A stretch of 64,000 bases of DNA, from IMG/VR virus record IMGVR_UViG_3300010399_000034, positions 1-64,000 of that record; one strand, written 5' to 3'. A program made the translations under genes and the position numbers. The stretch comes from a virus. The notes beneath the pieces were generated by a model. It was not told where the DNA came from, searched no databases, and saw only the letters and a list, made by a program, of their open reading frames with translations. The first letter of the stretch is position 1. Each line of letters opens with the position of its first letter. This document shows positions 8,116-63,983 of this stretch, in pieces.

Positions 8116-8128
8116 AGAGGAAGCAAGC

Positions 8129-8827: not shown

Positions 8828-8860
8828 TCTTTTCACGCGCTCCGGCGCGCGATATGGAAG

Positions 8861-8920: not shown

Positions 8921-8923
8921 TTC

Positions 8924-10063
8924 ATGCGCGCTGACGACGACACGCTCCTCCACGAACCTCGGGCCCTTTGGACCGTGCAGGCGTTGCTTGCCGAGGCGCT
9001 CGAGGCGAACGTCGAAGAAGACATCGTCGTCTCGACCGGGCGCGTGCTAGTCCCGAAGGACGACTTCAAGAACACGAGCCGCTATCCGATCACGCTGACA
9101 AAGATGTGCGTCTGCGCGATCGGCTACACGTATCGCGAGTACGAGTTCACGGCGACGCCGGAGGCCGTGCACAACTCGATGATGGCGGCACAGAACCAGG
9201 TGAAGATCTTCCTCTCGTCGCCGTATTCGTTTCATCTCGACCGCAACGACTTCATCGTCAATCAGGCGCCGCCCGATCCGACGGCCGAGCCTGGCATGCG
9301 CTACGACCCAACTATTGGAAGCTACTCTTCGGGCATCTGGGGGCTCAATCGCTGGACGTTCGATCGCTGCCTCTGGCTCCCGCGCAAGGCGACGCTTCAA
9401 CTCGACATCGGCACGTGGATCATTCCGGATCTCGGCTTCGGCGCGCCGCCGGCTATCTACACGTCGGTGCAGTTCGACGAGCCGCAGACTGGAATCCTCG
9501 GCGGTAACAATCGTCTCCGTGCACGCGCGGCGATCCCCGCTGTCTTCGATACGCATGCTGCCGCAGTCGGGATCCCTGCGCCTGACGCGTTCGGTGCTGG
9601 CAATGGCGGCACGAGCTTCGTGACCTACCCAGCCGAAGGGCTCTTCAAGCCGAACGTCTTCAACCGGCAGGAGAGCGATCGTGGCCAGGACATGAACGCC
9701 TTCACCGGCTTCGCCGTCGCGCTTGATCAGATCGACTACGACCTCGCGATTCAGGCACTCGGTGTGGACTTCGCCGCCAAGCCGATCGCGCCGATCGGGA
9801 CGCGCATCGTCACGCGCGCCAAGTGCAGCAACGGCGGTACGAACGAGTGGTGGTGGCGGCCTAACGCGCCGCTCTGTCTGGTCTCGCCGACGATGGGTCC
9901 GGCGACGGTCTACACTCTGCGCAAGCCCATCGTGCTCGGCCCCGGAGAGCAGCTCGAGGTGGAGCTTCAGGCGCCGCCGATCGTGACCATCGACGACACA
10001 CCCTTTCAACCCACCTACCAGATCGGTGTGTCGTTCACCGGCTACGCGACCATCGAAGGTTGA
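8924..10063 (+). CDS. Virion protein with two related domains, paralogue of the next gene
   Basis: 379 residues, no membrane segment. Its C-terminal half contains NGGTNEWWW and, about 30 residues later, a GPGEQLEVEL strand, matched in the next protein by NGTNQWWNW and EGVTVEVES; both end in a short G-Y-x-x-x strand. An N-terminal half beginning DFKNTSRYPITLTKM resembles the start of each half of the next protein (VYRNGEKFPFRVTHL; DFRNDGTEPLEVTHM), so the protein seems built from two similar beta domains. A double-barrel capsid or vertex protein is a possible reading. It starts immediately after the terminator. Confidence 0.6.
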   Translation: MRADDDTLLHEPRALWTVQALLAEALEANVEEDIVVSTGRVLVPKDDFKNTSRYPITLTKMCVCAIGYTYREYEFTATPEAVHNSMMAAQNQVKIFLSSPYSFHLDRNDFIVNQAPPDPTAEPGMRYDPTIGSYSSGIWGLNRWTFDRCLWLPRKATLQLDIGTWIIPDLGFGAPPAIYTSVQFDEPQTGILGGNNRLRARAAIPAVFDTHAAAVGIPAPDAFGAGNGGTSFVTYPAEGLFKPNVFNRQESDRGQDMNAFTGFAVALDQIDYDLAIQALGVDFAAKPIAPIGTRIVTRAKCSNGGTNEWWWRPNAPLCLVSPTMGPATVYTLRKPIVLGPGEQLEVELQAPPIVTIDDTPFQPTYQIGVSFTGYATIEG

Positions 10064-10065
10064 TC

Positions 10066-10998
10066 ATGGACAAAAACGAGTACATGCAGCGCCTCGCCAA
10101 GCGCAACCTCGTCGAGAAGGACGCGAAGCACTTCGAGCCGCGCCTCTTCTTCGATTCGTTCGTGTTCGACGGGCAGACGGCACGCGTCTTCTCGCAGCCC
10201 GACGTCTATCGCAATGGCGAGAAGTTCCCGTTCCGGGTCACGCACCTCAGTGCGTCGATGCTCTTCACGTCGGACGAGCTTCAGAACCCGGTGGGCGGCG
10301 ACGAGCGGATGATTCAACGCTACTCGATGCGCATCAGGGCGCATGGCGTCTACTACCAGAACTCCGACGTCACACCGATCCCGCTTTGGGCGAATAAGCC
10401 GGTGGCTGCCGCAGACGTTACGACACTCTCGCAGTCGTGCTGGCGCTTCGACAAGCCTTTCATCCTCGGCAATCGTGACACCTTTCAAGTCGAGGTCTCG
10501 CTTATCGTTGCGCCCGACACCGATCTGACGGAGCGCGTCGCGGTGACTTTCGCGGGTCTAGGGCTCTACTCGCGGATGCCGAAGATCTTGACGAGCGAGA
10601 TCGATCTCGCGGACACGCTCGTCGCGACGATGGACACCAACGACTTCCGCAACGACGGCACCGAGCCGCTCGAAGTGACGCACATGGTCGTGCATCACAC
10701 GCCGTCGGTCGAAGTGACCAACCCAGTCGGCAACATCCGCAATGTCAAGCTGCGTGTGCGCGCCAATGGCAATGGTACCAATCAATGGTGGAACTGGACC
10801 GCGGTCTCGGCTGCGACGCAGCTCGTTCCAGCGCAGCTCTTCGGGCTCACGACGGGGCGCTCGGTCGTGCACGAGCTCCCCGGTGACGGCTGGCTCTGGT
10901 ATCCGAACGAAGGTGTGACGGTCGAGGTCGAGTCGCAGGACACGTCGCGCCGGGATACGGTGCTCATCGCCATGGCCGGCTACATCATGGTGACGTGA
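10066..10998 (+). CDS. Virion protein with internal duplication
   Basis: 310 residues from ATG 10066, 2 bases after the previous stop. Residues 40-170 and 190-310 look like repeats: each begins with an [FY]RN.......V[TE]H[LM] strand, passes through an arginine-rich strand (YSMRIRAHG; VKLRVRANG), a Trp-containing segment and a V.V..... strand, and ends with a hydrophobic GLGLYS or AGYIMV. Such duplication is what a double-barrel protein would show. Related to the preceding gene. Assigned to the virion by context; family unknown. Confidence 0.6.
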   Translation: MDKNEYMQRLAKRNLVEKDAKHFEPRLFFDSFVFDGQTARVFSQPDVYRNGEKFPFRVTHLSASMLFTSDELQNPVGGDERMIQRYSMRIRAHGVYYQNSDVTPIPLWANKPVAAADVTTLSQSCWRFDKPFILGNRDTFQVEVSLIVAPDTDLTERVAVTFAGLGLYSRMPKILTSEIDLADTLVATMDTNDFRNDGTEPLEVTHMVVHHTPSVEVTNPVGNIRNVKLRVRANGNGTNQWWNWTAVSAATQLVPAQLFGLTTGRSVVHELPGDGWLWYPNEGVTVEVESQDTSRRDTVLIAMAGYIMVT

Positions 10999-11351
10999 TG
11001 CTGCGCAAGAAGACCGAGTGGTATCGGACGACGCTCACGACGCTGCCGAGCATCATCGTGCCGCAGGAAGAAGGCGTGGGAGGGCTGCGTCGTATCACGC
11101 TCCTCGTTCGCGACTCGGCGCAGATTCAGGTCGCGCTCGATAAGGAGGTCGTGCCGTACAAGCCGGTGTCCGACGTCGATCCGACGACGGACGAAGCTGG
11201 CTCGAACGAGATCGACGCGCGCGACGCGTATTGGCCCGAGCCTCCGGTGAATAAGCAGATCATCTTCGAGATCCTCCCAGATCAGTGGGTCGTCGGTCGC
11301 GCTGCGGACGAGCTGCACGAGCTCTCCGTCATCGTCGAGTACCTGGAGTAA
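10998..11351 (+). CDS. Small virion-block protein of unknown function
   Basis: 117 residues from ATG 10998, overlapping the upstream stop (TGATG). It is acidic, without membrane segments, and predicted mixed alpha/beta from its pattern (RITLLVRDSAQIQVAL; KQIIFEILP; LSVIVEYLE). It sits directly behind the two duplicated-domain proteins and may be their partner. No family recognised. Confidence 0.65.
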   Translation: MLRKKTEWYRTTLTTLPSIIVPQEEGVGGLRRITLLVRDSAQIQVALDKEVVPYKPVSDVDPTTDEAGSNEIDARDAYWPEPPVNKQIIFEILPDQWVVGRAADELHELSVIVEYLE

Positions 11352-11354
11352 GCC

Positions 11355-12158
11355 ATGGGCGCCGGACGAAGCGCAGACGTCTTCTCGATGCTGAGCGAGC
11401 TCAATCTGAGCGAGCAGAGCCTCACGCGTGCATGGGTCGCAGCGCAGTTCTTGGCGGCCAACGGCGCGCTCAACGAGCAGACGCGTCGCGCGGTGATGAC
11501 GCAGCGTGATGCCGTCTTCGGCATCCAGCAGACCATCTACAGCGCGATCCAGCGCGTCCTTGGGCCCATCGGGCAGAGCGATGCGATCCCGCAGCCGCGC
11601 CCGCTCCCGGATCTTCCACCTTCCGGCCAGCCCACGCAGCCGAACATGGTCCAAACGGACGGCCTCGGCATCGCGCCTGCGATCGTTTGGGCCGCTGCGG
11701 TCGTCGGCATCTTGATCCATCTCGCCGCGATCTACGCGGTCGTGCGCGTCATCCAGATCGGCGCCGACGCCGTCGTTCGGATGTACGCGATCCGTGAGAA
11801 CACCAAACGCCTCGATCTGCACACGCGCTCGCAGCAAGACCGCTTTCAACAGTGCCTTGCACAGACGCGCGATCCTGTACGCTGCGCCAATCTCTTTCCG
11901 CTCCCCGATCCGCAGCTCGAGGACACCACTGCGCATCTGCCGATGGACCCCGTCCTCCTCGGCGTCGGCATCGTCTCGGCGATCCTCTCGCTCGGTGTTG
12001 TCGGCTACGTCTTCTGGGAGTTCAGCTCTTCGACGCGCGGTGCGAGTGCGCCTTCGCGGATCTCGGGCGTGCGCGGGCATCCGCAGCTTCTCTCCGGGAC
12101 GGACGTGAGCCGCAGCCTTCGCGCCGACTTCGACGACGAAGAGGACGAGGACGACTGA
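11355..12158 (+). CDS. Two-segment membrane protein with acidic tail
   Basis: 267 residues. A helical N-terminal domain (1-70) and a Pro/Gln linker lead to DGLGIAP (a relaxed RGLG-type motif) and a long hydrophobic segment (about 105-130); a soluble loop with two Cys, a second membrane helix (about 203-225) and a tail ending DFDDEEDEDD follow. The acidic end is the opposite of the basic tails of its neighbours and might contact the basic core proteins. ATG overlap (TGATG) with the next gene. Unknown family. Confidence 0.7.
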   Translation: MGAGRSADVFSMLSELNLSEQSLTRAWVAAQFLAANGALNEQTRRAVMTQRDAVFGIQQTIYSAIQRVLGPIGQSDAIPQPRPLPDLPPSGQPTQPNMVQTDGLGIAPAIVWAAAVVGILIHLAAIYAVVRVIQIGADAVVRMYAIRENTKRLDLHTRSQQDRFQQCLAQTRDPVRCANLFPLPDPQLEDTTAHLPMDPVLLGVGIVSAILSLGVVGYVFWEFSSSTRGASAPSRISGVRGHPQLLSGTDVSRSLRADFDDEEDEDD

Positions 12159-12571
12159 TGGCGCGCTTCTACACAGGCCATCCCAAGGTCGATGCGCGCT
12201 TCCCGCACTTCGCGCCGGTCCTCGGCGCGCAGCCGCTCGTGCACGAGCCGGGGCGCGGGCTCGAGAGCGTGCTCGGCGATGCGGAACCCGACGGCGTGCC
12301 GAGCCAGATCGTCGCGCCCGATCCGTGGCCTGAGGTCTCCGTCGGCGTCGCGACCGCGGCGCTCTCGGGCGGCCTCGTCGGCGGGATTGCAGCGGGGCAC
12401 TGGCCCGGCGCGTCGATCGGTGCCGGTCTCAGCACTGCGGCGTGGAGCGTGTTTACGCTCTTCGGGTCGTTCCACGATCTCGGCCCTCGAGCGCGTACCG
12501 TCCTTGGCGGTGCTGCCGTCACGGGCGTATTGATGACGGGTCTCGGATTTTGGCTGCGAGGTCGACGATGA
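12158..12571 (+). CDS. Membrane protein with two hydrophobic segments
   Basis: 137 residues from ATG 12158, overlapping the previous stop. Residues 1-60 are polar; two Gly/Ala-rich hydrophobic stretches follow (about 64-105 and 115-133) and the protein ends WLRGRR. It overlaps the following small gene by ATGA. Probably another integral protein of the virion membrane; no family recognised. Confidence 0.7.
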   Translation: MARFYTGHPKVDARFPHFAPVLGAQPLVHEPGRGLESVLGDAEPDGVPSQIVAPDPWPEVSVGVATAALSGGLVGGIAAGHWPGASIGAGLSTAAWSVFTLFGSFHDLGPRARTVLGGAAVTGVLMTGLGFWLRGRR

Positions 12572-12744
12572 GCACCTTCACGAATCTCTTTGCGGCGATC
12601 ACCGGCGCGGTTGCCGCGTCGCAGAAGAAGCCTCGTCGGCGCAACGGCGGCGTAGGAGGCGGTCGGCGTGGCAAACCCGAATGTACGCCCTGTGCGGCGA
12701 ACGCGTACGTCGAATCTCTTCGTCCAAAGACTCCTAAGCGCTGA
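12568..12744 (+). CDS. 58-residue basic, Gly-rich protein
   Basis: ATG 12568 overlaps the preceding stop (ATGA). 58 residues: a mildly hydrophobic start (FTNLFAAITGAVAAS), then a basic Gly-rich stretch and a CTPC pair, ending PKTPKR. The last 77 bases are also read in another frame by the next gene. Coupled start and composition support it, but it is short and unfamiliar. Confidence 0.5.
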   Translation: MSTFTNLFAAITGAVAASQKKPRRRNGGVGGGRRGKPECTPCAANAYVESLRPKTPKR

Positions 12745-12928
12745 GCCACGATGCGTCATCTGCGGCACTACGAAAGGTCTGCGGCCCGTCCAAGCGGCTG
12801 GGGATCTCTCCGTCTTGAGCTGCGAGATGCACGAGGGCCTCGCGCGCGTCGGAGTTCGCGGCGTGAAAGAAGCGCTGGCGTTCCTCAAGCCGAAGCTCGC
12901 TTCGTGGTTCGAACGCTTTCGCCGATGA
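12668..12928 (+). CDS. Small zinc-finger-like protein, overlapping gene
   Basis: GTG 12668 has a strong binding site (GGAGGCGG, spacing 5) inside the previous gene. 86 residues: basic N-terminus, then CVICG and, about 18 residues later, CEMH, a C-x2-C...C-x2-H set like the metal site of small HNH or zinc-finger proteins; no complete HNH catalytic signature is visible. A helical C-terminus follows. The 77-base overlap of two reading frames is unusual even here. Confidence 0.55.
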   Translation: MANPNVRPVRRTRTSNLFVQRLLSAEPRCVICGTTKGLRPVQAAGDLSVLSCEMHEGLARVGVRGVKEALAFLKPKLASWFERFRR

Positions 12929-12937
12929 GGGGGCACC

Positions 12938-13486
12938 GTGGCTGAAACCGACGCGCAAAAGAGCCGACGCCGAAATCGGATGGATGCTCGCAACGAGCAG
13001 GGCGATCTCGTCGCCTACGAAGACGAAGGTGGGCAGCGTCTCATCTGGACCGGCGACGAAGAAGCGCCGTACGTCAAGGTCGTCAACAGCATCGACGATC
13101 CTGTCGTCATCTCCCCCGTCGAAGGCGGGACAGCGGTCATCTTCTACCGCGGCACGGCGACGCAGCAGGTCGCGATCGCAACGGGCGCAGTCAAGGTCCG
13201 GCAGGTCCGTGCGATCCTCGAAGCGAGCGTTGTCACAGATCGCTTCTTCATGATCTTCGACGCGGCCGCGCCCGTGGCGAACGGGGCCACGCCTGTGTGG
13301 CAGGCGCTCGTTCCAGGCGGGCTTACAACGGTCACCACGCATGCAGAGGCGGGCGACGACTTCGAACCGATCGGTGGTCTTGCGCTCACGGACGGTTTCG
13401 TGCTTGCGATTTCTACGACGCCTGGAACGTTGACGTTGCCGGGTGTCGCCGATACGTACTTCGAGGCCACCTACACGACGAGTTGA
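12938..13486 (+). CDS. Beta-rich virion surface-type protein
   Basis: 182 residues, GTG start with GAGGGGG upstream. A charged N-terminus (1-40) is followed by strands typical of small beta-sandwich structural proteins, rich in Val, Ala, Thr and Gly, ending LPGVADTYFEATYTTS. It stands directly before the beta-helix protein, so a base or adaptor for that spike is a reasonable guess. No firm family. Confidence 0.6.
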   Translation: MAETDAQKSRRRNRMDARNEQGDLVAYEDEGGQRLIWTGDEEAPYVKVVNSIDDPVVISPVEGGTAVIFYRGTATQQVAIATGAVKVRQVRAILEASVVTDRFFMIFDAAAPVANGATPVWQALVPGGLTTVTTHAEAGDDFEPIGGLALTDGFVLAISTTPGTLTLPGVADTYFEATYTTS

Positions 13487-13491
13487 GCAGT

Positions 13492-15426
13492 ATGGGCTAC
13501 TTTGCAATCCCCTCCGCAGGTATCGGCCTCCCGAGTTCCGGCGTCGGCATCGACCTCTACGTTCGCACGACCGGCGACGACAACAACCCAGGCACCGCAG
13601 CGTTGCCGCTATTGACGGTGACCGAAGCCGTTCGGCGGCTCGACTCGCTCGCCAAGATCACCGGCGTCAACGGCGTCGGCGCCACGGTGCACGTGGGCGC
13701 GGGCACCTTTCAATGGACCATGGGCCTTGGTCCGTTCTTCCTGAGCGAAGCGCTCTTCTTCATCGGGGATGGTGGCGGGCTCGTCGGCGATGACGGCTTC
13801 ACGGTACTTCTCGCGTCGACCGCGGCTCTTGCTGGCTCGGGTCTCGCAGTCGTCAAGTCGAGCGGGCTCACCGTTAATCAGTATCGCGGGAAGACGATCC
13901 AGATCCTCTCTGGCGCTGCCGCAGGCGATCGTCGAACGATTCGAAACAACACGGCGACGGACATCATCCCGTCCGGCAACTTCTCCGCCGCGATCGCGAC
14001 AAACGATACGTATCGGATCCTCGAACCGAACTGCTTCCTAGAGTTCGAGAGCTCCGCGACAGCCACGCCGCTGACGACCGACTTCCCACCAATCGCGAAG
14101 TCGTGTGGCGGCACAGTCGCGCAGGTCGACACGAACGGGACCGGCACTGCGACCGTCGCTCCGTCGATCTACTTCATCAACTTCCGTTTCCAGAACCGCA
14201 CCGGCGATGCGGATCCGACGGCTCGAATCTGCATCATCGATTCGGCGGTGACGTTCTTCGGCGTCGAGCTTAATGCTGTCACGTCGAAGACGATGATCCC
14301 CGTCGTCGACAAGACGTCCATCCTGCAAGCCGGGATGGACTTCCTCGCGAGCACGCTCTGTCTCGCTGTTCGTCCCTTCGAGGCAGGGCTCGCGACGAGC
14401 CGTACGTCGTGGTCGGGTTGGGGCGTCTCGGGCCAGGGCGCGGGCTCCATTCTCTGGAACGCGACCGCGCGCTTCATGGGCTACATCGTCGAGACGCACT
14501 CGCTCTCGATCGAGGACTGCGAGTGGCGAGCATGCGGTGGCTCGGTCCTCGCCGACGCCGCGATGATCATCGCGCGGTGGGGCCACTTCACGTGCCTCAC
14601 GTCGGGCGCTCCGACGTTCCTCATTCGCTCGGAAGCAACGGCGGCGAGCACGGCGGCGCTCCTCGTGCGCGGCAACGGTCAAGCGCAGCTCCTCAACTGC
14701 ACCATCGAGAAACAGAACCAAGGCTTCGCCATCCTTGTGCGCGGTGACGGCGGCGTCGTCAACGCGATTCCGGGGCAGGTGGGGCTCGGAACCGGCGTCA
14801 CGCTGACTGGAGAGACGAGCGGCACCGCGCCGACGAACGCGATCTGCGTGACGTACGGCGGCCAGCTCAGCTACATCGCGACGCCGACGATCTCTGGCTT
14901 CACGACGGGGACGCAGCTCTGTGTTCGGCAGAACGGCCCTGCGGGCACTGTCGTTCAGCAGTGCGACTTCACCGACCTTGCAACGAACGGTGACTGCCTC
15001 CCTGCACAGCCGATCAAGCAGACGTGGAACGCGCTCGGTGCGCTCTCCGGCTTCGCTGACGGCGTTGCCGGCACGTTCACCGTCGCAGGCAGCTTCGACG
15101 GTATGCGCGAGATCACGCGTACGGGGCTCTGGGATACGTTCCGACTTCGGCAACTGGTCGACGGCACCGCGGGCACAACGAGCGTCGAACTGTTCCGTCG
15201 CCGTGGCGGCGTTCTGACCTCGCTCGGGATCGTGTCGCGACTCTTCGGCGGTGGCGCTTTCGCGGAGGCGTCGTTGACGCCGGCTTCTGCTGCGCTTCGC
15301 GCGCTCTCCATCGGCGATGTGCTCGTCGTGCAGTTCACGGCGCGGCAGACGAACGGCGAGACGGTCACGGTCGAGCTCCTCGGCGACGTGGATGGCCGCT
15401 GGGGTCGTATCACGCGCGTCGCCTGA
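13492..15426 (+). CDS. Right-handed beta-helix protein, probable receptor-binding spike
   Basis: 644 residues from ATG 13492; the open frame upstream overlaps the previous gene. Residues 15-45 contain DLYVRTTGDDNNPGT...PLLTVTEAV, the entry signature of right-handed beta-helix (pectate-lyase-like) proteins. The middle is a long series of short strands with Asn/Gly turns, and the last 110 residues look like a separate beta domain. Proteins of this kind serve as receptor-binding or sugar-degrading spikes in phages. No membrane segment. Enzyme activity cannot be judged from sequence alone. Confidence 0.7.
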   Translation: MGYFAIPSAGIGLPSSGVGIDLYVRTTGDDNNPGTAALPLLTVTEAVRRLDSLAKITGVNGVGATVHVGAGTFQWTMGLGPFFLSEALFFIGDGGGLVGDDGFTVLLASTAALAGSGLAVVKSSGLTVNQYRGKTIQILSGAAAGDRRTIRNNTATDIIPSGNFSAAIATNDTYRILEPNCFLEFESSATATPLTTDFPPIAKSCGGTVAQVDTNGTGTATVAPSIYFINFRFQNRTGDADPTARICIIDSAVTFFGVELNAVTSKTMIPVVDKTSILQAGMDFLASTLCLAVRPFEAGLATSRTSWSGWGVSGQGAGSILWNATARFMGYIVETHSLSIEDCEWRACGGSVLADAAMIIARWGHFTCLTSGAPTFLIRSEATAASTAALLVRGNGQAQLLNCTIEKQNQGFAILVRGDGGVVNAIPGQVGLGTGVTLTGETSGTAPTNAICVTYGGQLSYIATPTISGFTTGTQLCVRQNGPAGTVVQQCDFTDLATNGDCLPAQPIKQTWNALGALSGFADGVAGTFTVAGSFDGMREITRTGLWDTFRLRQLVDGTAGTTSVELFRRRGGVLTSLGIVSRLFGGGAFAEASLTPASAALRALSIGDVLVVQFTARQTNGETVTVELLGDVDGRWGRITRVA

Positions 15427-34236: not shown

Positions 34237-34637
34237 GTGTCATCGCTGCACGGTGGGAGCCCGAGGACGCTGCGGACTTGTTCACGATCGCGCGGTTGTT
34301 CTTTCCACGAACGGGTTCGACTTGCGCGGTGGTGCTCGATGAACTCCTTGAACGAGCCGAAGACGAGCGCGCGATCGGGCTCGACCTTCGGTGCGTCTTT
34401 GAAGCGTGGAAGCTTCAGGACGTTGCGCGCGAGGATCAGCGAGCCGATGCAGTGCTCGCCGCGCTCGCGGCTCTCCCACTTCGTGAGCCACTCCGGATCT
34501 TCGTAGTCGATCGACTCGTGGCACGGGAGCGCTTCGTCACGTGCGATCGAGAGTGCGAACTCTTCGGGCATGGCTGCGCCGAGCCAGCCTGGCAACGACG
34601 TCCGGCGGAACGGGCAACTCCTGCAAGGCTTCTTCAT
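34233..34637 (-). CDS. DUF6283-like Cys-containing protein
   Basis: 134 residues from ATG 34637. It begins with MKKPCRSCPFRR, and further on has PCHES and HCIGS, the conserved Cys/His set of the small C-R-x-C-P-x-R family (DUF6283) found in actinobacteria and phages, from memory. Probably metal-binding. It overlaps the ParB gene (ATGA at 34634-34637). Confidence 0.6.
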   Translation of the reverse strand: MKKPCRSCPFRRTSLPGWLGAAMPEEFALSIARDEALPCHESIDYEDPEWLTKWESRERGEHCIGSLILARNVLKLPRFKDAPKVEPDRALVFGSFKEFIEHHRASRTRSWKEQPRDREQVRSVLGLPPCSDDT

Positions 34638-35542
34638 GTCTCGAACTTCGAGAGCTTGCGGACGCCGTCCGTGTCGTAGCCGAGCTCGCGCAACGTAGAG
34701 ATGAGGCCGCGGACCTGCTTGGCGCGGCTCTCTTCGCCGAGGACCCAATGAAGGAGCGCCCGCGCGTCGTTCGAGAGTCCACCGAGGAAGTCCTCGTTCT
34801 CGGCGAGCTTGCGCAGGACGGCGGTCCCCGGGCGCGCTGCACGGACCTCGCCCGTGGCGTGTCCATTCCCGTTGCTCTTGCGCATCTTCGTCTGGCGCTT
34901 CGCTTCTTCGACGGTGACGCCGAGCGTGGCGTACTCCTCAGCCTTCTCGCGCTGCTGTTCGCGTGGCAGATCGCGCAGGGTCATGGCGGCGGTCTGCGAG
35001 AGCCGGCGGTCGTGAACGAGGCGCTGTACCTGATCGTCGAGGTCGAGCAGGTTGAGCAGCGTCTTCACGCTCGGAAGCGGCAGACCCATCGTGACCGCTA
35101 CGTCCTCTTCGGACCGCCCGAGATCGAGGTAGCGCTGCGCCTTGCGCGCCCGGATGATCGGCGAGTCGTCGACCCTGTTTTCGTTCTCGGCGAGCGTGAT
35201 CCCGAACGCGTCGCCGTCGCTCGTCCGCTTCACCATGCACGGGACCTTGATCGGCTCGCCGCCGGCTGCGACGAGGCGTTTGTTCGCTTCGCGTGCTCCG
35301 CGGACGCGTTGGCGGCCTGCGATGACCTCGACCTGTTCCCCGTTCTTGCGAACGAGCACCGGCTCGAGCACGCCATAGCACATGATGTTCTTGACCCACT
35401 CTTCGGTGAGTCCGAGATGGATCCGCTCGTCGTAGAGCGGGTGTTCGCGCCCATCTTTCGTGTCGAGCCCAACGATCGTCAGGTCGTCCGGGTCCATGCC
35501 GAACGCATTGAGCCTCGAGCCCTCGAGTGCCTGCTTAGCCAT
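34634..35542 (-). CDS. parB: ParB-like DNA-binding protein
   Basis: 302 residues. An N-terminal ParB/Srx domain (about 20-130) with IAGRQRVRGAREANKR (75-87), the arginine-rich CTP/DNA-clamp motif, is followed by a helix-turn-helix (about 143-170, EDVAVTMGLPLPSVKTLLNLLDL) and a C-terminal helical region. ParB clamps load at parS sites for segregation; phage ParB homologues may also act as nucleases or regulators. No ParA is seen in the window. Leader: AGAAGGGTGGTG before ATG 35542. Confidence 0.8.
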   Translation of the reverse strand: MAKQALEGSRLNAFGMDPDDLTIVGLDTKDGREHPLYDERIHLGLTEEWVKNIMCYGVLEPVLVRKNGEQVEVIAGRQRVRGAREANKRLVAAGGEPIKVPCMVKRTSDGDAFGITLAENENRVDDSPIIRARKAQRYLDLGRSEEDVAVTMGLPLPSVKTLLNLLDLDDQVQRLVHDRRLSQTAAMTLRDLPREQQREKAEEYATLGVTVEEAKRQTKMRKSNGNGHATGEVRAARPGTAVLRKLAENEDFLGGLSNDARALLHWVLGEESRAKQVRGLISTLRELGYDTDGVRKLSKFET

Positions 35543-36393: not shown

Positions 36394-36573
36394 TCAGCGT
36401 TTGCTCTTCCGAGGACCACCCTTGCTCTTCTTCCGTTCCTTCCGGCGTCGGAGCGTCTTTGGATTGCCGTTCGCCGGCTTGGTCGAGATCTCGACGGGCG
36501 TGCTCTCGAGGAGCGCATCGAGACCGGCGATGCCCGCATTCAACGGGATGCGAATCCGCGGTACGAGCTTCAT
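36394..36573 (-). CDS. 59-residue basic protein
   Basis: ATG 36573 overlaps the recombinase stop (ATGA). 59 residues: a polar N-terminal half and a strongly basic C-terminal half (LRRRKERKKSKGGPRKSKR). Its stop codon lies in the loop of a small hairpin (AACGC-TGAGA-GCGTT) directly before the binding site of the next gene. Likely nucleic-acid binding, possibly a recombination directionality factor given the position beside the recombinase; that is a guess from context. Confidence 0.5.
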   Translation of the reverse strand: MKLVPRIRIPLNAGIAGLDALLESTPVEISTKPANGNPKTLRRRKERKKSKGGPRKSKR

Positions 36574-37448
36574 GCGTCCCTCATCTTCTTCCGGACCTGC
36601 CGGAGTAGCTTTGCCGACTCGAGCGCGGCTGCTTCGTCGAGGTAGCCGTCGGTCGTCTCGGGCGAGTCGTGGTTCAAGATCTTCTGAACAGCGAACCTGT
36701 TACCAGAGATCATGCCTGCTTGCAATGCTACGGTGCGACGAAGCCGATGCAAATAGATTCTGTCCTCGATGCCCGCAGCGGCCGCGAGCTCGTGAAGCTT
36801 GCGCCGACAGGCCTGATACGCTGCGCCGTTCGCGGTCCAGTCGTCCGTCTTGCTGACGGCCGTGGCGACGAGCTGACCTTCGCCGAGGCGATCGCGCAGG
36901 CGCTTCCATTCCCGCTTGGCGCCGAGCACCGAATAGACGATCGGCTTACTCCCCTTCACCACGATCCGTGTGATCCCGTCCTCGCGTGCGAATCCGGCAT
37001 CGATGACCCCAGCGTCGGTCCGCAGCACGTCCGAGACGCGCAGAGCCGAGCTGCACATCACGTCGATCACCCGGCCGGCCGTCGTCTCGTCTGCCTCTAC
37101 GAGTCGAAGGAACGGCCTCCACAGCTCGATCGGGATGGACACGGCCTCCTTGAGCCGCTTGGGCTCCTTGCGCCTCTTCCTCTTGCGGTGCGACGCCGGC
37201 TCGGGCGGGAGCTCGGCGGGCGGTGGAAGCCTGTTCCGGCGCCCCTCAGATTCGCAGAAGTCGGCCCAGAGGGCCCACGCCCAGCGGTAGTCACGCAGGC
37301 GCTTGCGGAGCATTTGCGAGGCCGGCGGGCTCGTCCCGTGGTCGCGCATCGTCCTCACGTCGTTCGCAGCCTTCCGCGCCGAGGTGATCGCCAGCTTCTC
37401 GCGATCGATCATCCACGCACGAAAGCGGTCGAGTGCTTCGGCGTTCAC
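36570..37448 (-). CDS. Tyrosine recombinase (phage integrase family)
   Basis: 292 residues from GTG 37448, which overlaps the previous stop (GTGA). A helical N-terminal core-binding part and a basic linker (RKRKRRKEPKR) lead to the catalytic domain: SSALRVSDVL (first Arg), HRLRRTV (His-x-x-Arg) and LNHDSPETTDGYLDE (His and the nucleophile Tyr). The catalytic set appears complete, so it should be active in site-specific recombination such as integration, dimer resolution or inversion. No att site could be recognised. Confidence 0.85.
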   Translation of the reverse strand: MNAEALDRFRAWMIDREKLAITSARKAANDVRTMRDHGTSPPASQMLRKRLRDYRWAWALWADFCESEGRRNRLPPPAELPPEPASHRKRKRRKEPKRLKEAVSIPIELWRPFLRLVEADETTAGRVIDVMCSSALRVSDVLRTDAGVIDAGFAREDGITRIVVKGSKPIVYSVLGAKREWKRLRDRLGEGQLVATAVSKTDDWTANGAAYQACRRKLHELAAAAGIEDRIYLHRLRRTVALQAGMISGNRFAVQKILNHDSPETTDGYLDEAAALESAKLLRQVRKKMRDA

Positions 37449-39420: not shown

Positions 39421-39476
39421 TTGATCTGCGCTCGGACAGCGCTCTCGCGTGAGAGCACCTACCGGCCGAAGATCAA
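39421..39476 (-). promoter_or_regulatory. Structured RNA element D
   Basis: Read on the - strand: outer arms TTGATCT (39476-39470) and AGATCAA (39427-39421); conserved CGGCCGGTAGG on the 5' side and GTCCGAGCG on the 3' side; inner hairpin GCTCTC-ACGC-GAGAGC. The upstream stop codon TGA (39475-39473) is inside the 5' outer arm. In this copy the next start is 48 bases further, behind GAGGAGGA. See elements A, B, C and E. Confidence 0.75.
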
Positions 39477-40116: not shown

Positions 40117-40140
40117 TTGGAAACCTCCCATGGAGCGCCC

Positions 40141-40160
40141 GGGGGCTCGAACCCCGGACA
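40141..40160 (-). other. T-arm-like hairpin in a leader
   Basis: On the - strand CCGGGG-TTCGAGC-CCCCGG (about 40142-40160) has the stem and seven-base loop of a tRNA T-arm and is followed by GCGCTCC, which could pair with GGGGCGC about 70 bases upstream. No anticodon arm can be drawn and the 3' end lacks CCA, so it is not called as a tRNA. It forms a stable hairpin just before the lipoprotein start. Confidence 0.4.
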
Positions 40161-40222
40161 CAGGACTCAGCATGCGATCTTCGCCGCAGCAGCCTGCATG
40201 CACCAACGTGCGCCCCGAAGAA

Positions 40223-40667: not shown

Positions 40668-40732
40668 GCGTTGAATCCCGCTCGGAGTCCGCGTGTCAGC
40701 TAGACGCGCGGCTACCGGCCGCTATTCAATGC
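40668..40732 (-). promoter_or_regulatory. Structured RNA element A
   Basis: Read on the - strand: outer arms ATTGAAT (40730-40724) and ATTCAAC (40676-40670); conserved GCGGCCGGTAG and CTCCGAGCGG; inner hairpin CCGCGCGTC-TAGCT-GACACGCGG. The upstream stop TAG (40734-40732) lies directly before the 5' outer arm. The ribosome binding site GAAAGGGTGG follows the 3' arm. Confidence 0.75.
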
Positions 40733-41160: not shown

Positions 41161-41217
41161 GTTGAATCCGCTCGGACGAACGCGAGCCGAGCTCGCGTCC
41201 TACCGGCCGGGTTCAAG
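41161..41217 (-). promoter_or_regulatory. Structured RNA element B
   Basis: Read on the - strand: outer arms GCTTGAACC (41217-41209) and GGATTCAAC (41169-41161); conserved CGGCCGGTAGG and GTCCGAGCGG; inner hairpin ACGCGAGC-TCG-GCTCGCGT. The upstream stop TGA (41215-41213) sits in the outer stem; CGAAGGGAG follows. Confidence 0.75.
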
Positions 41218-42004: not shown

Positions 42005-42060
42005 TTGATCTGCGCTCGCACGGTGCGCTCGGATGGAGCGCACCTAGCGGCCGTAGATCA
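42005..42060 (-). promoter_or_regulatory. Structured RNA element C
   Basis: Read on the - strand: outer arms TGATCT (42060-42055) and AGATCA (42011-42006); conserved CGGCCGCTAGG and GTGCGAGCG; inner hairpin TGCGCTC-CATCC-GAGCGCA. The upstream stop TGA (42060-42058) is the start of the outer stem. Here the central pair is C and G where elements A, B and D have G and C. Confidence 0.75.
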
Positions 42061-42240
42061 CTCAAGATCGAAAGCGATCAACTCAGCCATCATGCCGGGG
42101 CGCTCCGCGTTCAGTACGCGGAATGCGGCCGCTTCGTTGACCGCATACGCGCTGAACGTCTCGCCGTCCGCGCACTTGTAGTAGTAGCGCGATCCGCCAC
42201 CGGCCTGCCGTGCGCGTTCCTCCTGAGTCTGCCGCTCCAT
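42058..42240 (-). CDS. 60-residue protein, first gene of the leftward operon
   Basis: ATG 42240, GAAAGAGGGG upstream. 60 residues, polar N-terminus, then a strand/helix region (YYYKCADGETFSAYAVNEAAAFRVL). As the first leftward gene next to the control region it would be made earliest; a repressor or antirepressor could sit here, but no DNA-binding motif is seen. Confidence 0.55.
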   Translation of the reverse strand: MERQTQEERARQAGGGSRYYYKCADGETFSAYAVNEAAAFRVLNAERPGMMAELIAFDLE

Positions 42241-42513
42241 CCGATCCCCTCTTTCCGGCCGGCTTCCGCCGCGCTCGAATCCTAGTATTGCATGCGGCGG
42301 GCCAAGTCAGCTAGGCACCCTTGCTAGCTGACAAAAGGCCCTGTCGGACTATAGTCCGACAACGCGATCGGCCTCGAGCTCGCACCCACACCTACATGTA
42401 GCCCTGTGAAGAAAAAGGCCCTCAAACCGTGCCGATCCGGCCCAGACTACATGTAGGTGTGAGCCGGCTCGGCGCGATCCAAGCTGGCACGGCGCTAGCA
42501 TTGTAAGGGTTCC
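42241..42513. promoter_or_regulatory. Divergent control region with three inverted repeats
   Basis: This 273-base gap separates the leftward and rightward operons. It holds: an inverted repeat of GTCAGCTAG (42306-42314) and CTAGCTGAC (42324-42332); CTGACA (42328-42333) and TATAGT (42350-42355) spaced 16 bp, a good rightward promoter whose -10 lies inside the perfect 20-bp palindrome TGTCGGACTATAGTCCGACA (42342-42361); 15-bp arms CACACCTACATGTAG (42387-42401) and CTACATGTAGGTGTG (42447-42461), each containing a 10-bp palindrome; and a GCTAG box (42492-42507) before ATG 42514. A leftward promoter is less clear (TTGGCC, 15 bp, TAGGAT near 42281-42303). Confidence 0.7.
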
Positions 42514-42777
42514 ATGGAAGGCGGAACGGCGAGTAGGACGGTGTGGATCGAGCGGAGCAAGGTCTACCCCGCTCCCGGCTCGAACCCGCGCTATCAATGG
42601 CGCTGGATCTACCGCCTCCGTTGCGAGGGTTTCACCGGCCCGACCTGGACTATGCCGGACGGCCGCTCGGGTGCAGTGTCCTTCGAAGGGCAGACCCTCA
42701 GCACCATCCGCCAAACGGCGGCGAAGATCGCTCGCGAGCACGGCGCGGCCGTCCGCGAAGCATGGAAGGAAGGCTGA
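42514..42777 (+). CDS. Small protein, first gene of the rightward operon
   Basis: 87 residues; AAGGG before ATG 42514. Trp/Arg-rich first half (YQWRWIYRLRCEGF), strand-type middle and a helical end (IRQTAAKIAREHGAAVREAW), like small phage proteins that interact with DNA or replication proteins. Unknown family. Followed by ATG 42780 after a TGATC junction. Confidence 0.6.
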   Translation: MEGGTASRTVWIERSKVYPAPGSNPRYQWRWIYRLRCEGFTGPTWTMPDGRSGAVSFEGQTLSTIRQTAAKIAREHGAAVREAWKEG

Positions 42778-43430: not shown

Positions 43431-43500
43431 TCTTCGCGTTCGCTCCGGCGCACGAGTCCTACTCGTGCTCCGCGTGAGACTGCGAAGTCTGAAGGGAAGG
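43431..43500 (+). promoter_or_regulatory. Stop-to-start hairpin junction, variant
   Basis: Directly after the stop TGA comes CTTCGC, pairing with GCGAAG near 43484-43489, with an inner hairpin CACGAG-TCCTA-CTCGTG. GAAGGGAAGGG and TTTCA-ATG follow. The placement equals that of elements A-E, but the conserved GGCCGSTAGG and CGAGCG loops are absent, so it is a related design, not another copy. Confidence 0.5.
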
Positions 43501-43506
43501 GTTTCA

Positions 43507-44237: not shown

Positions 44238-44289
44238 ATCTGGCCGCTAGGCGCTGAGTCATGCTCGGCGCCGTGCGAGCGGAGTCAAC
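44233..44289 (+). promoter_or_regulatory. Structured RNA element E
   Basis: The only + strand copy. Outer arms GTTGAATC (44233-44240) and GAGTCAAC (44282-44289), one mismatch; conserved TGGCCGCTAGG and GTGCGAGCGG; inner hairpin CGCTGAG-TCATG-CTCGGCG. The upstream stop TGA is 44235-44237 and AGAAGGGAAGGG follows. Since it is inverted together with the genes, the element belongs to the transcript, not to a fixed DNA strand. Confidence 0.75.
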
Positions 44290-56605: not shown

Positions 56606-57015
56606 TCTTCGTCCTTCTTTCCGCCCTCGAGCACCTTGAAGCCGGCGCGTCGTTCTTCCGCTGCAAGAGCAGGCGGCGCCGACTTGGCGAGCTCCGCCTT
56701 CCACGGCCACTGAACGATCATCGTGTCGGTCGCGTGCTGCGACAGCACGTCGATCGTGCTCATCGCGACGACGGCCGACCACGGAACGACGCAATGGAAC
56801 GGCGTGCGGTCGAACGAAAGCGTCCCAGAGAAGCCCTCGCTGTTGAAGATGAGATCTGGGATCGGGATCGCGAGGTGTCGCCCGAGATGAACGAAAAGGA
56901 TCTCGCCTTGCAAGTGTGAAGGAAGACGTACGCCGTGTCCGCGCAGCAAGATCCAGATCTTGAAGACGAGCTCGGTGTCGAGCAGCTCCTCGAAGACTTT
57001 CTTCTTGGCGAGCAT
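56602..57015 (-). CDS. SspB-like ClpXP adaptor
   Basis: 137 residues, ATG 57015 (TGATG overlap). GEILFVHLGRHLAIPIPDLIFNSEGFSGTLSFDRTPFHCVVPWSAVVAM closely follows the SspB fold (IVLN.....I.....D...I.F...F.G....I.VP..AVLAI), and the C-terminus (FKVLEGGKKDEE) looks like the ClpX-binding tail of SspB (VVK-type end). SspB delivers ssrA-tagged substrates to ClpXP. A viral copy could redirect host proteolysis. It is paired with the ribbon-helix-helix gene. Confidence 0.7.
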   Translation of the reverse strand: MLAKKKVFEELLDTELVFKIWILLRGHGVRLPSHLQGEILFVHLGRHLAIPIPDLIFNSEGFSGTLSFDRTPFHCVVPWSAVVAMSTIDVLSQHATDTMIVQWPWKAELAKSAPPALAAEERRAGFKVLEGGKKDEE

Positions 57016-57398
57016 CAGCCCCTCGTTCGCTTTCGGCTGCGGCGCCCCCGGCCGGAGAGCCCTTCGAGGACTTCCCCCTCGACGACGTCTGCGCCTGGTG
57101 CAGGAAGCGCGCGAGTCGGCGGCTCGACAGCGACGCCCGCATCGGAAGAACCACCGAGCAGCTCCTCGACTAGGATCTCACGCACGCGTCGCCTGATGCG
57201 CTGCATCTTCTCTTGAAGCATGGCTTGGAACGCCGCGATCTCTTCTCCGATCGCAGCCTCCAACGCTGGCGTCTCGACGGCACGTTGCAAGATGAAGCGG
57301 ATCGTCTGCGACCGCTGATAGCCACGACTCGCGCCGAGCTGATCGATCTTAGCGATGAGCTCATCCGGAACGCGAATGCTGATTTTGTGGTCCGCCAT
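57015..57398 (-). CDS. Ribbon-helix-helix DNA-binding protein
   Basis: 127 residues. KISIRVPDELIAKIDQLGASRGYQRSQTIRFIL (4-36 in outline) is a CopG/Arc-type ribbon-helix-helix. A coiled-coil-like helix (55-80) and a basic low-complexity tail follow. A transcription regulator of the late-type minus-strand operon is likely; its start lies next to no clear operator. It overlaps the SspB-like gene, so the adaptor might control its degradation. Confidence 0.75.
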   Translation of the reverse strand: MADHKISIRVPDELIAKIDQLGASRGYQRSQTIRFILQRAVETPALEAAIGEEIAAFQAMLQEKMQRIRRRVREILVEELLGGSSDAGVAVEPPTRALPAPGADVVEGEVLEGLSGRGRRSRKRTRG

Positions 57399-59676: not shown

Positions 59677-62526
59677 TCACACCGAATACCAGTCATCGCC
59701 GATCTTGGCGACGGCAGGAAATGGCATCGCATCTGCCCCAGGAACCAATGTTAGCTTCTGCGACATACAACGCTCGAGGAGCGCCGCGACCTTGTCGGCT
59801 TTGTGCTCGTCGCATTCAACGTAGATCGCGTCGTGGACCTGCGCGATGATGATCGCAGTCGGGTCGACGCTCGGAAGTTGATGCGCAAGTTCGAGCATCG
59901 AGAGGTTCATCATCGATGCGACCGTTGAGTTCTTGCTGATGATTCCTGCACTGTCGTAGCGGTGGAGGTCGTGCTGGACAGCAAGCGTGTACAAGTCTGC
60001 GCTTTCCTCGAGCTGACACACTGCCGCAACGGTCCCGGTCGAATAGAGCTCAGCGTCGCGCCAGTCACCAGCAGCCTCCGTCATACGCTGAAGCGTGTGC
60101 GGGTTCGTTGTACCGCCGTGCGCCAACCGAGACCAAAGCACGTACATGCTCCGCTCCGTGGCGTACGAGAACGGGTTTCGTGGGTAGGTTTCAAGAAACC
60201 GATCACGCGCGGCACGACCAAGACGATCATCACGACTGAAACGTTGTCGATCCGTTGGATCGCCGTAAGCGAGCTGGCTCCGCAGCAGGGAGCCAGCGAA
60301 GTTCAGCCGCCACGCCATGTGTCCATCGCGATCGGAGACATACGGTCCGTCGATACGCGAGGTCACGCCGCAACTTCGTGCGAGCAGTTGCAGGTCACGA
60401 AGCAGCTCTAGGTTCGGCGTGTTGGAAGACGGCTGCCCCATAGACAGCGTTCCGTCAGCGTCCATGTAGCCGAGAAGGAACGCTTTTCGCGCCGACAAGC
60501 AAGCACGCCAGATCGAATCTGGTACGCGTTTCGTCTTGGCACGCCAAGTCGGGTCAACCCCCCAGGAGGGGAGAAGCTGTCGAAGGCGACTATCTGCGGC
60601 CACGCTGATTGCCGTCAATGGTCCGTGAACCTGGGCCTTCCAGAGGCCGCCGTATTGTATCGCCCAGCGTGTAAAGGACGCAGCGTACTCGTCATGCGCG
60701 AAGCGTTTTACACGTGTACCGAAGCACCACACAAGTTGGTCTGTGGAGCCGGTTCGTTGCGACCACGACCCGTTTCCGATCCAATACCCGAGCCAGTACG
60801 CGTCGGCGTCATTGAAAGGGGCACCGAACTCCTGCGCTGAGGCAAGCGGCTGCGCAATACGGTCGCCTTCACGTAACTCTCCAACAGCGCGCCATTCGAA
60901 CTCGATTCCGTCGTCACGAAGCACGCGAAGATAGTGTTCTTCGTTCGTCTGAAGTACATGCCCGTTGGTGAGCTTCGTCTCCCATAGTTGCTCAGTCCGC
61001 TTTCCAAGCGTCATCGATGGAGCCCATTGATTTGGCGCGCCGAGCGACGCGGAGCACGTCGCATGTTCCACCGGGAGATAGCCTTCTGTTGTAAGAACGC
61101 GCGTCCCGCCTCGAACGCACTGCATCTTGTAGTTGTATACAACTGTCGCATCGATCAAGAGAAGCGGGAACTCGCGACGACGACCGATGAGCGCGTCGGT
61201 GACACGGCCAGTTCGCTTGGCTTCAGTGAGCTCGCGCTCGCGCCACGGCCGCACCGACGGGAACGCTTTGAAGATCGCGGCGAGGATCGTCTCGACCGTC
61301 GCGATGTCGATCGGCATGCCCTCGTAGCCGCCGTCGTAGATGGAGTTGAGGATCGTCTCCGACCCAGCGCCGTAGAAGCTGCCGTAGATGACGCGCTTCT
61401 CGAGATCGCGCAGCGCTGACCGCGTCTTGTCGTCGGCCTTGAGGTAGCCGTCCTTGAACGCGATCGCGCTCACGTACGCGTGTGGGTCGCAGTCGGGCTC
61501 GTACTTGCGCGCTTCGTCAGCGTTGACGCAGAGCGAGATGAGCTTCTCGTCGCCGCAGAGCGCACCGAGCACGCGAAGCTCAGCCTGTCCGAGGTCGGCG
61601 CCGACGATCTTGCGGCCCGGCGGCGCGACGATGCACTCGCGGATGCCGGGCACCTCGAGCGTGATCTTCCCTGGCTTCGCCTTCGCGAGGAAGATCTCGT
61701 CGCCAGGAAAGAGCGGAAGCTGCCATGGACCGCCGTGCGGTCGGCCCTTGCTGTCGAGTGCCTCGAAGATCGCAAGCATGAGAAGGATGCGCTTCCCCCA
61801 GTTCATTAGGTTCGGCTCGCTGCTCCATCTCCCGGTCCTCGCACCGAGCGGCTTCCAACGCACGCGGATGCGCCAGTCCTGCGAGACCGGCATCCCCTCG
61901 ATGTACGTCGACTTGATCTTCTCCCAGCGACGATAGTCAAGGAGCAGATCGACGAACGGATGACCCTTGTAAGAGAGCAACGACGATTTATCTGTCGATG
62001 GCTGCCCTTGTGGATGCGTCTTGCTCGGGTCGGTGTACTTCATCGGAAGCAGCCGACACGGCCCGTTCTTGTCGTAGAGCGCCCACGCGAGCTGCGGAGG
62101 ACTCGTAGGGCTAAAGTCTGGCCGACCCGTGAATGCACGCAGGAGCTCGACCGAACGCGCCATGTAGAAATCAGAACGCTGCGACCAGCGGATCCACCGT
62201 TCTCGACTCACTGGCAAGCCGGCGCGCTCGACGTCCTTCGCGACGTGGAACATCCCGACGTCGAGGTCATGGACGAAGCGTGCGTTCTCTGCTTCGAGCT
62301 CGGTGAGCTGCGAGAGCATGGAGAGCGTCGTATTGTAAACGTCGCGACCGTTGTAAGCGAAGAGCTGCTCGTTCGACTCCCAGACCTGCTGCCCGCCCTT
62401 CTCCTTCGGCGGCTTCCACGGCGGCGTGTCGGTGTAGCAGCCGGCGATGTGTTGCAAGCGATGAGGCTCGTCGGGATGAACGGCGTTGTGCGCGATCTCG
62501 GTGTCGTAGACGTAGCCGCGAGTCAT
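59677..62526 (-). CDS. polA: Family A DNA polymerase, C-terminal part, with intein
   Basis: 949 residues from ATG 62526 (ATGA overlap with the preceding gene), 552 after removal of the intein. YNGRD near 70 is the Exo III motif of the 3'-5' exonuclease whose first half is in the upstream gene. IVGADLGQAELRVLG is motif A, RDLEKRVIYGSFYG the O-helix with Tyr at the position where E. coli Pol I has Phe, as in T7 polymerase, and QVHDAIYVECD motif C, with Ala replacing the usual Glu after HD. It copies the genome in concert with the UDG-Exo protein. Clearly an SPO1-type replicase. Confidence 0.85.
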   Translation of the reverse strand: MTRGYVYDTEIAHNAVHPDEPHRLQHIAGCYTDTPPWKPPKEKGGQQVWESNEQLFAYNGRDVYNTTLSMLSQLTELEAENARFVHDLDVGMFHVAKDVERAGLPVSRERWIRWSQRSDFYMARSVELLRAFTGRPDFSPTSPPQLAWALYDKNGPCRLLPMKYTDPSKTHPQGQPSTDKSSLLSYKGHPFVDLLLDYRRWEKIKSTYIEGMPVSQDWRIRVRWKPLGARTGRWSSEPNLMNWGKRILLMLAIFEALDSKGRPHGGPWQLPLFPGDEIFLAKAKPGKITLEVPGIRECIVAPPGRKIVGADLGQAELRVLGALCGDEKLISLCVNADEARKYEPDCDPHAYVSAIAFKDGYLKADDKTRSALRDLEKRVIYGSFYGAGSETILNSIYDGGYEGMPIDIATVETILAAIFKAFPSVRPWRERELTEAKRTGRVTDALIGRRREFPLLLIDATVVYNYKMQCVRGGTRVLTTEGYLPVEHATCSASLGAPNQWAPSMTLGKRTEQLWETKLTNGHVLQTNEEHYLRVLRDDGIEFEWRAVGELREGDRIAQPLASAQEFGAPFNDADAYWLGYWIGNGSWSQRTGSTDQLVWCFGTRVKRFAHDEYAASFTRWAIQYGGLWKAQVHGPLTAISVAADSRLRQLLPSWGVDPTWRAKTKRVPDSIWRACLSARKAFLLGYMDADGTLSMGQPSSNTPNLELLRDLQLLARSCGVTSRIDGPYVSDRDGHMAWRLNFAGSLLRSQLAYGDPTDRQRFSRDDRLGRAARDRFLETYPRNPFSYATERSMYVLWSRLAHGGTTNPHTLQRMTEAAGDWRDAELYSTGTVAAVCQLEESADLYTLAVQHDLHRYDSAGIISKNSTVASMMNLSMLELAHQLPSVDPTAIIIAQVHDAIYVECDEHKADKVAALLERCMSQKLTLVPGADAMPFPAVAKIGDDWYSV
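59929..61119 (-). other. Intein with LAGLIDADG homing endonuclease in polA
   Basis: 397 residues from Cys 470 to Asn 866 of the protein. It starts CVRGGTRVLTTEGYLPVEH (splicing block A), and contains LGYWIGNGS and LLGYMDADGTL, the two LAGLIDADG helices. It ends GIISKN followed by Ser, so the penultimate residue is Lys where most inteins have His. The insertion splits YKMQ from STVASMMNLSML, in the helix with the conserved Gln of Pol I, right at the active site, where loss of the intein is costly. Confidence 0.8.
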
Positions 62527-63983
62527 GCGACACCCCACACGCTCTGTATGACCTGCGTGTCGTAAATCCCGTTTTGAAAACACTTCTTGAAGCGCTCGTC
62601 TTGCAACCAGCGAACGACTGTCTCGAGCAGCGGATCACCGCGCTTCATCCCGATCGTGTTGAGAACGACGGCCGCTTCGCGTTGCGTCCAGTCGACTGTC
62701 GGTCGTCCCTTGTGCAGCCCGATGCAACGAATCTCCGTGACGGTCCACGGATCCTTCGAGTCGGTCTCGATGTCGACCGACGTGAAGAGTGGCGGCGTTT
62801 CATCGCCGAAGAGGTAGCGTTCCAGAAACTCGAGTGAAGCCTTGTAAGCTTCGGTCTTGACCAACGGCGCCTGATACTCCTGACCCGTACGAGCGAGCTC
62901 CGCCTCGAGCCCACACTCCATGTGATCGGGAAGAACGATGTACTGGTACTCCCACTTCGCATCTTCGGTCAGGAGCCGTTGCGCCTTGCGCAGATGTGCG
63001 AGCGACGCGTTGATCATGAACTGCCCGGCGGCCGTCTTCTTCTCCTTGCCGTCTGGCTGCCGTAGAAGGAACGCTGGGTGGTACGTCGGGATCACGTACG
63101 CGCACGGGAGATCCACGCGCGCGAACTCGTCCATCTTCGCGTAGTCGGGCGCGTGCCGACCACGATAGAGCGCGCCTGCTGACGCCATCAGCTTGTGCTG
63201 CGTCTTCCAGAGCTGAAGCTCGACCTGCTGTGTCTTGCGCCCAGCACACGTCGGACAGCGCTTCTTGCGCTTCTCGATCGTAACGGTGTCGTATCGGTGA
63301 CTCCATGCCGGAGCCATTGTCCCGCCGCCCTCGATACGGTCTTCATTCAACGCGCGATCGCTCACGAGGCCAGCGCAGACAAAGTCAGACAGGCCAGCCG
63401 CGCGAGCAGAGACCTGCTGTCCGCACCACGCGTCCCAACCCGGCGGAAGAAGCTGTTCGCTCTTACACTGCGCGCACTTCCACCACGCGAGCGTCATCTC
63501 GCCATTGCACTGCGGGCAGTTGAGGGGCTTGCCGGCAGAGTCCTTGAAGAGCGGAACGCGCGCCGTCTTGGCGACGAAGCGTCCGGTAAGCGCGGAGAGC
63601 GCGCCAGCTCCGAGCGCGACGATGACGCGCGGCTGAAGCATCTCGATCTCGGCGAGAAGGCGAGGACGACACTTCGGGATCGCCGCTTCGACTTGGTCGT
63701 CCTTCGTACCATGCTCAGGGAGGCAAAGCTCAGCGTTGGAAACGTAACAATGTCGTCGCTCTATACCAACCATCGAAAGGAGCTTGTCGAGCAGACTGCC
63801 GGAGCGGCCAACGAAGGGCACTTTGAGTTGTGCCTCCTGGAGACCTGGTCCTTCGCCGACGAGCATCAGCCCGTTGAACTCGTCAGGGCGCTGCGAAAGG
63901 CAGATCGTACGATCGCGCCGACCGACGAGCGGACAGCCCGCACAATCAGCGATCCGATGGTCGTACACGTACTGATACGCCAT
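62523..63983 (-). CDS. Family 4 uracil-DNA glycosylase fused to the first half of a 3'-5' exonuclease
   Basis: 486 residues. UDG part: VGEGPGLQEAQLKVPFVGRSGSLLDKLL (42-69) and TYHPAFLLR are the active-site motifs of Fe-S uracil glycosylases; Cys 14, 17, 87 and 105 fit the cluster ligands. Two zinc-ribbon-like insertions follow. From about 402, DIETDSKDP (Exo I) and FQNGIYDTQVI (Exo II) start a Pol I-type proofreading domain, which ends abruptly at residue 486; the third exo motif is in the next gene. UDG fused to Pol is known from phage SPO1. Confidence 0.85.
   Translation of the reverse strand: MAYQYVYDHRIADCAGCPLVGRRDRTICLSQRPDEFNGLMLVGEGPGLQEAQLKVPFVGRSGSLLDKLLSMVGIERRHCYVSNAELCLPEHGTKDDQVEAAIPKCRPRLLAEIEMLQPRVIVALGAGALSALTGRFVAKTARVPLFKDSAGKPLNCPQCNGEMTLAWWKCAQCKSEQLLPPGWDAWCGQQVSARAAGLSDFVCAGLVSDRALNEDRIEGGGTMAPAWSHRYDTVTIEKRKKRCPTCAGRKTQQVELQLWKTQHKLMASAGALYRGRHAPDYAKMDEFARVDLPCAYVIPTYHPAFLLRQPDGKEKKTAAGQFMINASLAHLRKAQRLLTEDAKWEYQYIVLPDHMECGLEAELARTGQEYQAPLVKTEAYKASLEFLERYLFGDETPPLFTSVDIETDSKDPWTVTEIRCIGLHKGRPTVDWTQREAAVVLNTIGMKRGDPLLETVVRWLQDERFKKCFQNGIYDTQVIQSVWGVA

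Follow-up and report, generated by a model that had tools for sequence, protein, structure and literature searches.

The question raised by positions 42241–42513, an intergenic stretch of 273 bp from which two blocks of phage genes diverge, is whether it is a genetic switch of a temperate virus, as had been proposed in the initial annotation, or a divergent control region of a more general type. The window that we analysed comprises 64 kb of an 86,806-bp IMG/VR virus record. The last 100 bases of this record are repeated at 23–122 (0-based offset 23), which indicates a ~122-bp direct terminal repeat and hence a probably complete record. Gene layout was taken from a codon-usage gene model built with a purpose-written script rather than a standard gene caller. 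According to this model, a rightward block of genes extends up to ~30.7 kb, a leftward block runs from 42.24 to 31.1 kb, and another rightward block occupies 42.51 to 47.86 kb. A further block, long and mostly leftward, encodes polymerase, a Sak4-like annealing protein, exonuclease, helicase and a DUF3987 protein and continues up to 84.5 kb. The genes diverge at 42240 (minus strand) and 42514 (plus strand), with no predicted gene in between, in agreement with the earlier assignment of a leftward and a rightward operon to the two sides of the region. The first leftward gene (42058–42240, minus strand) encodes 60 aa without a family match, and the first rightward gene (42514–42777, plus strand) encodes 87 aa without a significant one. 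The leftward block includes a tyrosine recombinase (36570–37448, minus strand), recognised by family match and with apparent catalytic residues.

Several other features of the layout were recorded. DNA polymerase is found in two overlapping adjacent frames (59677–62526 and 62523–63983, minus strand), which match different portions of a single polymerase family. A SNF2-type helicase frame (record 73684–76386, minus strand) probably holds an intein, since LAGLIDADG and Hint-type matches fall in its middle. In the other large gap between diverging genes, a perfect 13-bp inverted repeat, GAACGCCGCGTCG, with a 9-nt spacer is followed by a T-rich stretch (record 84709–84743).

Direct inspection of the sequence confirmed the positions and arm lengths of all three inverted repeats (IRs) that had been described in the region. 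IR1 (42306–42332) consists of 9-bp arms, GTCAGCTAG (42306–42314) and CTAGCTGAC (42324–42332), separated by 9 nt. IR2, TGTCGGACTATAGTCCGACA (42342–42361), is a perfect 20-bp palindrome, the longest in the 86.8-kb record. IR3 is formed by a perfect 15-bp arm, CACACCTACATGTAG (42387–42401, plus strand), and the same 15-mer in inverted orientation, CTACATGTAGGTGTG (42447–42461, minus strand), across a 45-nt spacer; no perfect inverted repeat in the record with a spacer of up to 60 is longer. Each IR3 arm holds a 10-bp palindrome of its own, CTACATGTAG, which, allowing at most one mismatch, is absent from the rest of the window.

One explanation of these repeats would be chance palindromes around an ordinary promoter. 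In 4000 dinucleotide shuffles of the 273-bp region, an inverted repeat with arms of at least 9 bp and a spacer of up to 20 appeared in 79, and a palindrome of at least 20 bp with a spacer of up to 2 in four, while neither arms of at least 15 bp, as in IR3 taken singly, nor all three repeats jointly, as found here within 156 bp, were ever obtained (0/4000 each). Record-wide, there are 54 inverted repeats (arms at least 9 bp, spacer up to 60) versus ~43 in shuffled genomes, each of which also has 0–3 palindromes of IR2 length. IR1 or IR2, singly, is therefore unremarkable, and repeats of both kinds are to be expected at such a genome size; the outstanding features are IR3 and the clustering of the repeats, which is non-random. 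With the repeats placed on promoter boxes and a second composite site elsewhere in the record (both described below), we regard a chance origin as highly improbable.

A rightward sigma70-like promoter, CTGACA (42328–42333), a 16-bp spacer and TATAGT (42350–42355), is the sole sigma70-like match in the 42.0–43.0 kb interval and ranks second among those in noncoding parts of the record, of which the top-ranked one sits at a gene start. It was equalled by 3 of 300 shuffles, which upholds the initial reading of a good promoter with its −10 box beneath IR2. The best leftward candidate, CTGACT-15-AATACT (42284–42310, minus strand), is insignificant, being equalled by 140 of 300 shuffles; both were scored as sigma70-like, a consensus that may not be that of the host. 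On these scores the rightward promoter appears convincing and the leftward one does not. The right arm of IR1 carries the rightward −35 box CTGACA, mirrored on the minus strand by CTGACT in the left arm, the −35 box of the leftward candidate. IR1 thus overlies the rightward −35 box just as IR2 overlies the −10 box. Relative to a putative start at ~42362, IR1 extends from about −56 to −30 and IR2 from about −20 to −1, and the IR3 sites fall at about +25 to +39 and +85 to +99.

The centre of IR2, ACTATAGT, reads TATAGT on both strands, as in the bidirectional promoters with a symmetric −10 element described by Warman et al. (PMC12825309). In contrast to those promoters, the minus-strand −35 sequence, TCGAGG, is poor here, and the symmetry of IR2 spans 20 bp, far past the −10 box, which makes it operator-like.

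IR3, which lies in the predicted rightward leader, could also act as RNA, as a 15-bp leader hairpin with a 45-nt loop through which the rightward operon would be controlled at the level of translation or termination. Consistent with this, the leader folds at −67.8 kcal/mol, with only 4 of 200 shuffles as good, and repeated inter-gene RNA hairpins are present in both operons (see below). However, pairing outside the 15-bp arms and within the loop was at chance level (92 and 211 of 1000 shuffles for the flanks of IR3), and a long leader hairpin around IR3 was rejected on these statistics. Furthermore, the self-palindromes of the arms would be superfluous for an RNA stem, the second site at record 82342 has a single fused copy instead of paired arms, and the model of the intercistronic RNA gives no match in the leader. 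All this makes an RNA role of IR3 unlikely. Because pairing beyond the 15-bp arms does not exceed that of shuffles, IR3 is better read as two discrete opposite-facing putative DNA sites, and the 10-bp palindrome inside each arm would fit the binding of a dimer.

The best support for the IR motifs as putative protein-binding DNA sites comes from a genome-wide scan, which located the sequence TGTCGGACATGTAGGTGC at record positions 82342–82360 (minus strand), in noncoding DNA. In this sequence, 8 bases of IR2 and 11 bases of IR3 are fused. Among 150 shuffled genomes, none placed an IR2 8-mer and a 10- or 11-mer of IR3 at most 15 bp apart, and with 9-mers this happened once. The fused site is a single case, found post hoc, and shared k-mers show no overall enrichment. 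It would imply a small regulon together with the divergent promoter. The site precedes a leftward gene by 110 bp and lies at one margin of a noncoding stretch of 928 bp (record 82233–83160; L005:18233–19160), which adjoins the DUF3987 gene and contains AT-rich tracts, CGCTAA/TTAGCG repeats and palindromes. These origin-like features make the stretch a candidate replication origin.

Which proteins might bind these sites? Divergent transcription and palindromic operator-like repeats over promoter boxes resemble phage lambda OR and P22 immI (Arc/Mnt), and the tyrosine recombinase and a ParB-family protein are reminiscent of the integrase/maintenance module that accompanies a lambda-like switch. 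The similarity ends there: in place of repeats of one operator type, the region has three unrelated types, and no repressor gene was recognised beside it. A true lambda-like temperate switch, in which the flanking operons encode repressor and anti-repressor, would account for the divergent layout, the operator-like repeats on the promoter and the presence of a recombinase, but neither of the first genes matches any DNA-binding family, the other scanned genes of the operons mostly lack a useful family match and yielded no repressor, and no cI- or cro-like gene was found among the genes scanned. In addition, a single-sequence structural model of the 87-aa protein, itself of low confidence, has a b-b-b-a fold with no clear helix-turn-helix. 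Such a switch is very unlikely, as the lambda-type arrangement is unsupported when the first genes lack a recognisable DNA-binding domain. Accordingly, of the initial interpretation, the divergent control region with protein-binding sites stands, backed by the second fused site, whereas the label of a temperate genetic switch exceeds the evidence, as no flanking gene is repressor-like. A temperate or plasmid-like life is conceivable, given that the phage encodes a tyrosine recombinase and ParB.

The regulators are most likely phage proteins encoded elsewhere rather than by the flanking genes. Two that had been named as candidates, a ribbon-helix-helix protein (57015–57398, minus strand) and the ParB-family protein of the leftward block (34634–35542, minus strand; ParB_N and HTH_ParB domains), are genuine members of DNA-binding families by family match, and a MarR-like protein (record 64305–64592) can be added to them. 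Another proposed candidate, the 15505 protein of the large rightward block, has a weak helix-turn-helix match. No close copies of the IR sites were found upstream of the candidate regulators' own genes; the hexamer ACATGT occurs upstream of parB, at 35604. It had also been suggested that at least two DNA-binding proteins are implied, which is plausible but not required because IR1, IR2 and the second site (record 82342–82360) share the motif TGTCRG.

Some comparative data bear on the protein that might recognise IR3. Triple CTACATGTAG palindromes occur in the promoter region of three phage loci that are not related to the present one (L009, L012 and L016, of which L009 and L012 are nearly identical), where they adjoin ribbon-helix-helix-like (Arc-like) genes, identified as such by eye. 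These loci point weakly to the ribbon-helix-helix family for IR3; the analogy is weak because the palindrome is present in many contexts, and a search for the paired CTACATGTAG pattern returned 15 loci in mostly unrelated ones. A single-sequence model of the ribbon-helix-helix protein of the studied phage shows the two expected helices, with the strand absent.

The ParB-family protein deserves separate consideration. KorB-like members of the CTP-clamp ParB family repress promoters from palindromic sites, and the presence of a ParB-family protein likens this phage to such systems, unlike which it has no canonical parS. The region might alternatively be a partition or recombination site of a plasmid-like prophage, with IR2 serving as a parS-like site for the phage ParB and IR1 (9-9-9) as the core site of the tyrosine recombinase. 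The leftward block encodes both the CTP-clamp-family ParB and the recombinase; the size of IR2, a palindrome with zero spacer, is roughly that of parS, to which its TGT...AC/GT...ACA pattern also bears a loose similarity. Nevertheless, the best match to the canonical parS, TGTTNCACGTGAAACA, has 2 mismatches and lies inside a gene, the ParB and recombinase genes are 5–7 kb away, no ParA was noticed beside parB, and IR2 and IR1 are positioned precisely on the −10 and −35 boxes. We therefore consider a role of the region in partition or recombination improbable.

The phage has few protein relatives, and no DNA relatives around the control region were found in 50,697 phage records. No relative preserving the region was found, so there is no phylogenetic footprint, and the exact IR2 is absent from viral and genome contigs. 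Two apparent relatives detected via the 87-aa protein (L003 and L004) were discarded, since they match by chance, in antisense to a long frame. The second rightward gene has one real homologue (L007, 39% identity), which belongs to a unidirectional operon without this control region.

Taken together, these data favour the view that positions 42241–42513 are, with reasonable though far from complete confidence, a protein-regulated divergent promoter region of the phage, a control region of an ordinary, already known kind. In the proposed mechanism, RNA polymerase would begin rightward transcription near 42362. IR2 would be bound by a dimeric DNA-binding protein that masks the −10 box, and IR1 by one that masks the rightward −35 box together with any leftward −35 box, so that 60 bp of DNA would suffice to shut or balance both directions. 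The two IR3 sites, which face each other at about +25 and +85, could be occupied by a protein that recognises CACCTACATGT and acts as a roadblock or forms a loop, and the fused motifs at record 82342–82360 would place the origin-like locus in the same small regulon.

Both operons that start at the control region also contain a family of RNA hairpins located between genes. There are five copies, four in the leftward block (42011–42054, 41167–41210, 40677–40722 and 39427–39469, all on the minus strand) and one in the rightward block (44240–44283, plus strand). The element consists of CGGCCGSTAG, a variable hairpin and GTSCGAGCGS, followed directly by a Shine-Dalgarno sequence. The IR1 half-site has a single additional copy, CTAGCTGACA, in the loop region of the 40677–40722 hairpin; a further −35 box at this place (40694) had been considered and was dropped, as the sequence belongs to the hairpin loop. 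In an alignment of four copies built independently of the structure, 8 of 14 pairs have changes on both sides, and covariation affects 11 of 14 pairs in a 12-copy alignment that had been fitted to the structure; 0 of 500 shuffles did as well in either case. Between the covarying helices lie two conserved 2x2 internal loops, which could accommodate a protein or an RNase III site.

A covariance model of the hairpin detected 11 copies in another phage of 86.4 kb (L023, positions 5780–14509, all on the minus strand), where most of the copies inspected directly precede start codons. That phage has a terminal repeat and a terminase related to those of actinophages, and it is apparently unrelated to the studied one, three proteins of which gave no match when queried against it. 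No Rfam family matches the hairpin. Cluster K mycobacteriophages have inverted-repeat elements, SAS/ESAS, upstream of start codons in non-structural operons, and changes in the ESAS arms do not support RNA pairing, so that a DNA-binding role has been proposed (PMC3203893). The hairpins described here resemble ESAS as repeated inverted repeats with a similar position before genes in phage operons, but differ from it in their compensatory changes (in contrast, the arms of ESAS do not covary as RNA and are followed by the 13-bp SAS; PMC3203893).

Two other structured sequences were seen in these operons. A long hairpin at 43431–43506 (plus strand), CTTCGC...GCACGAGT/ACTCGTGC...GCGAAG, precedes the gene at 43507 and has a layout as in the RNA element, with different internal loops. 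Upstream of the gene at 40116, positions 40125–40215 (minus strand) form a tRNA-like cloverleaf, GGGGCGC ... CCGGGGTTCGAGCCCCCGG GCGCTCCA; its candidacy as an attP core was rejected, given an extra base pair and no ARAGORN or Rfam support.

A more far-reaching scenario, which we consider doubtful, is that TGTCGGAC plus ACATGTAGGTG form a composite code that a single protein of the phage reads both here and at the origin-like locus 40 kb away, and so would couple both divergent operons to replication, their transcripts being punctuated by a new family of RNA hairpins shared with an apparently unrelated phage. As for the region itself, it likely marks the decision point of two gene blocks in a phage that has hardly any annotated relatives, and IR1–IR3 supply concrete putative sites for finding its regulators. 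The covarying hairpin, present in two phages without detected common proteins and outside Rfam, may be the more general discovery, as it suggests a common RNA-level signal, for processing, stability or translation, in phage operons.
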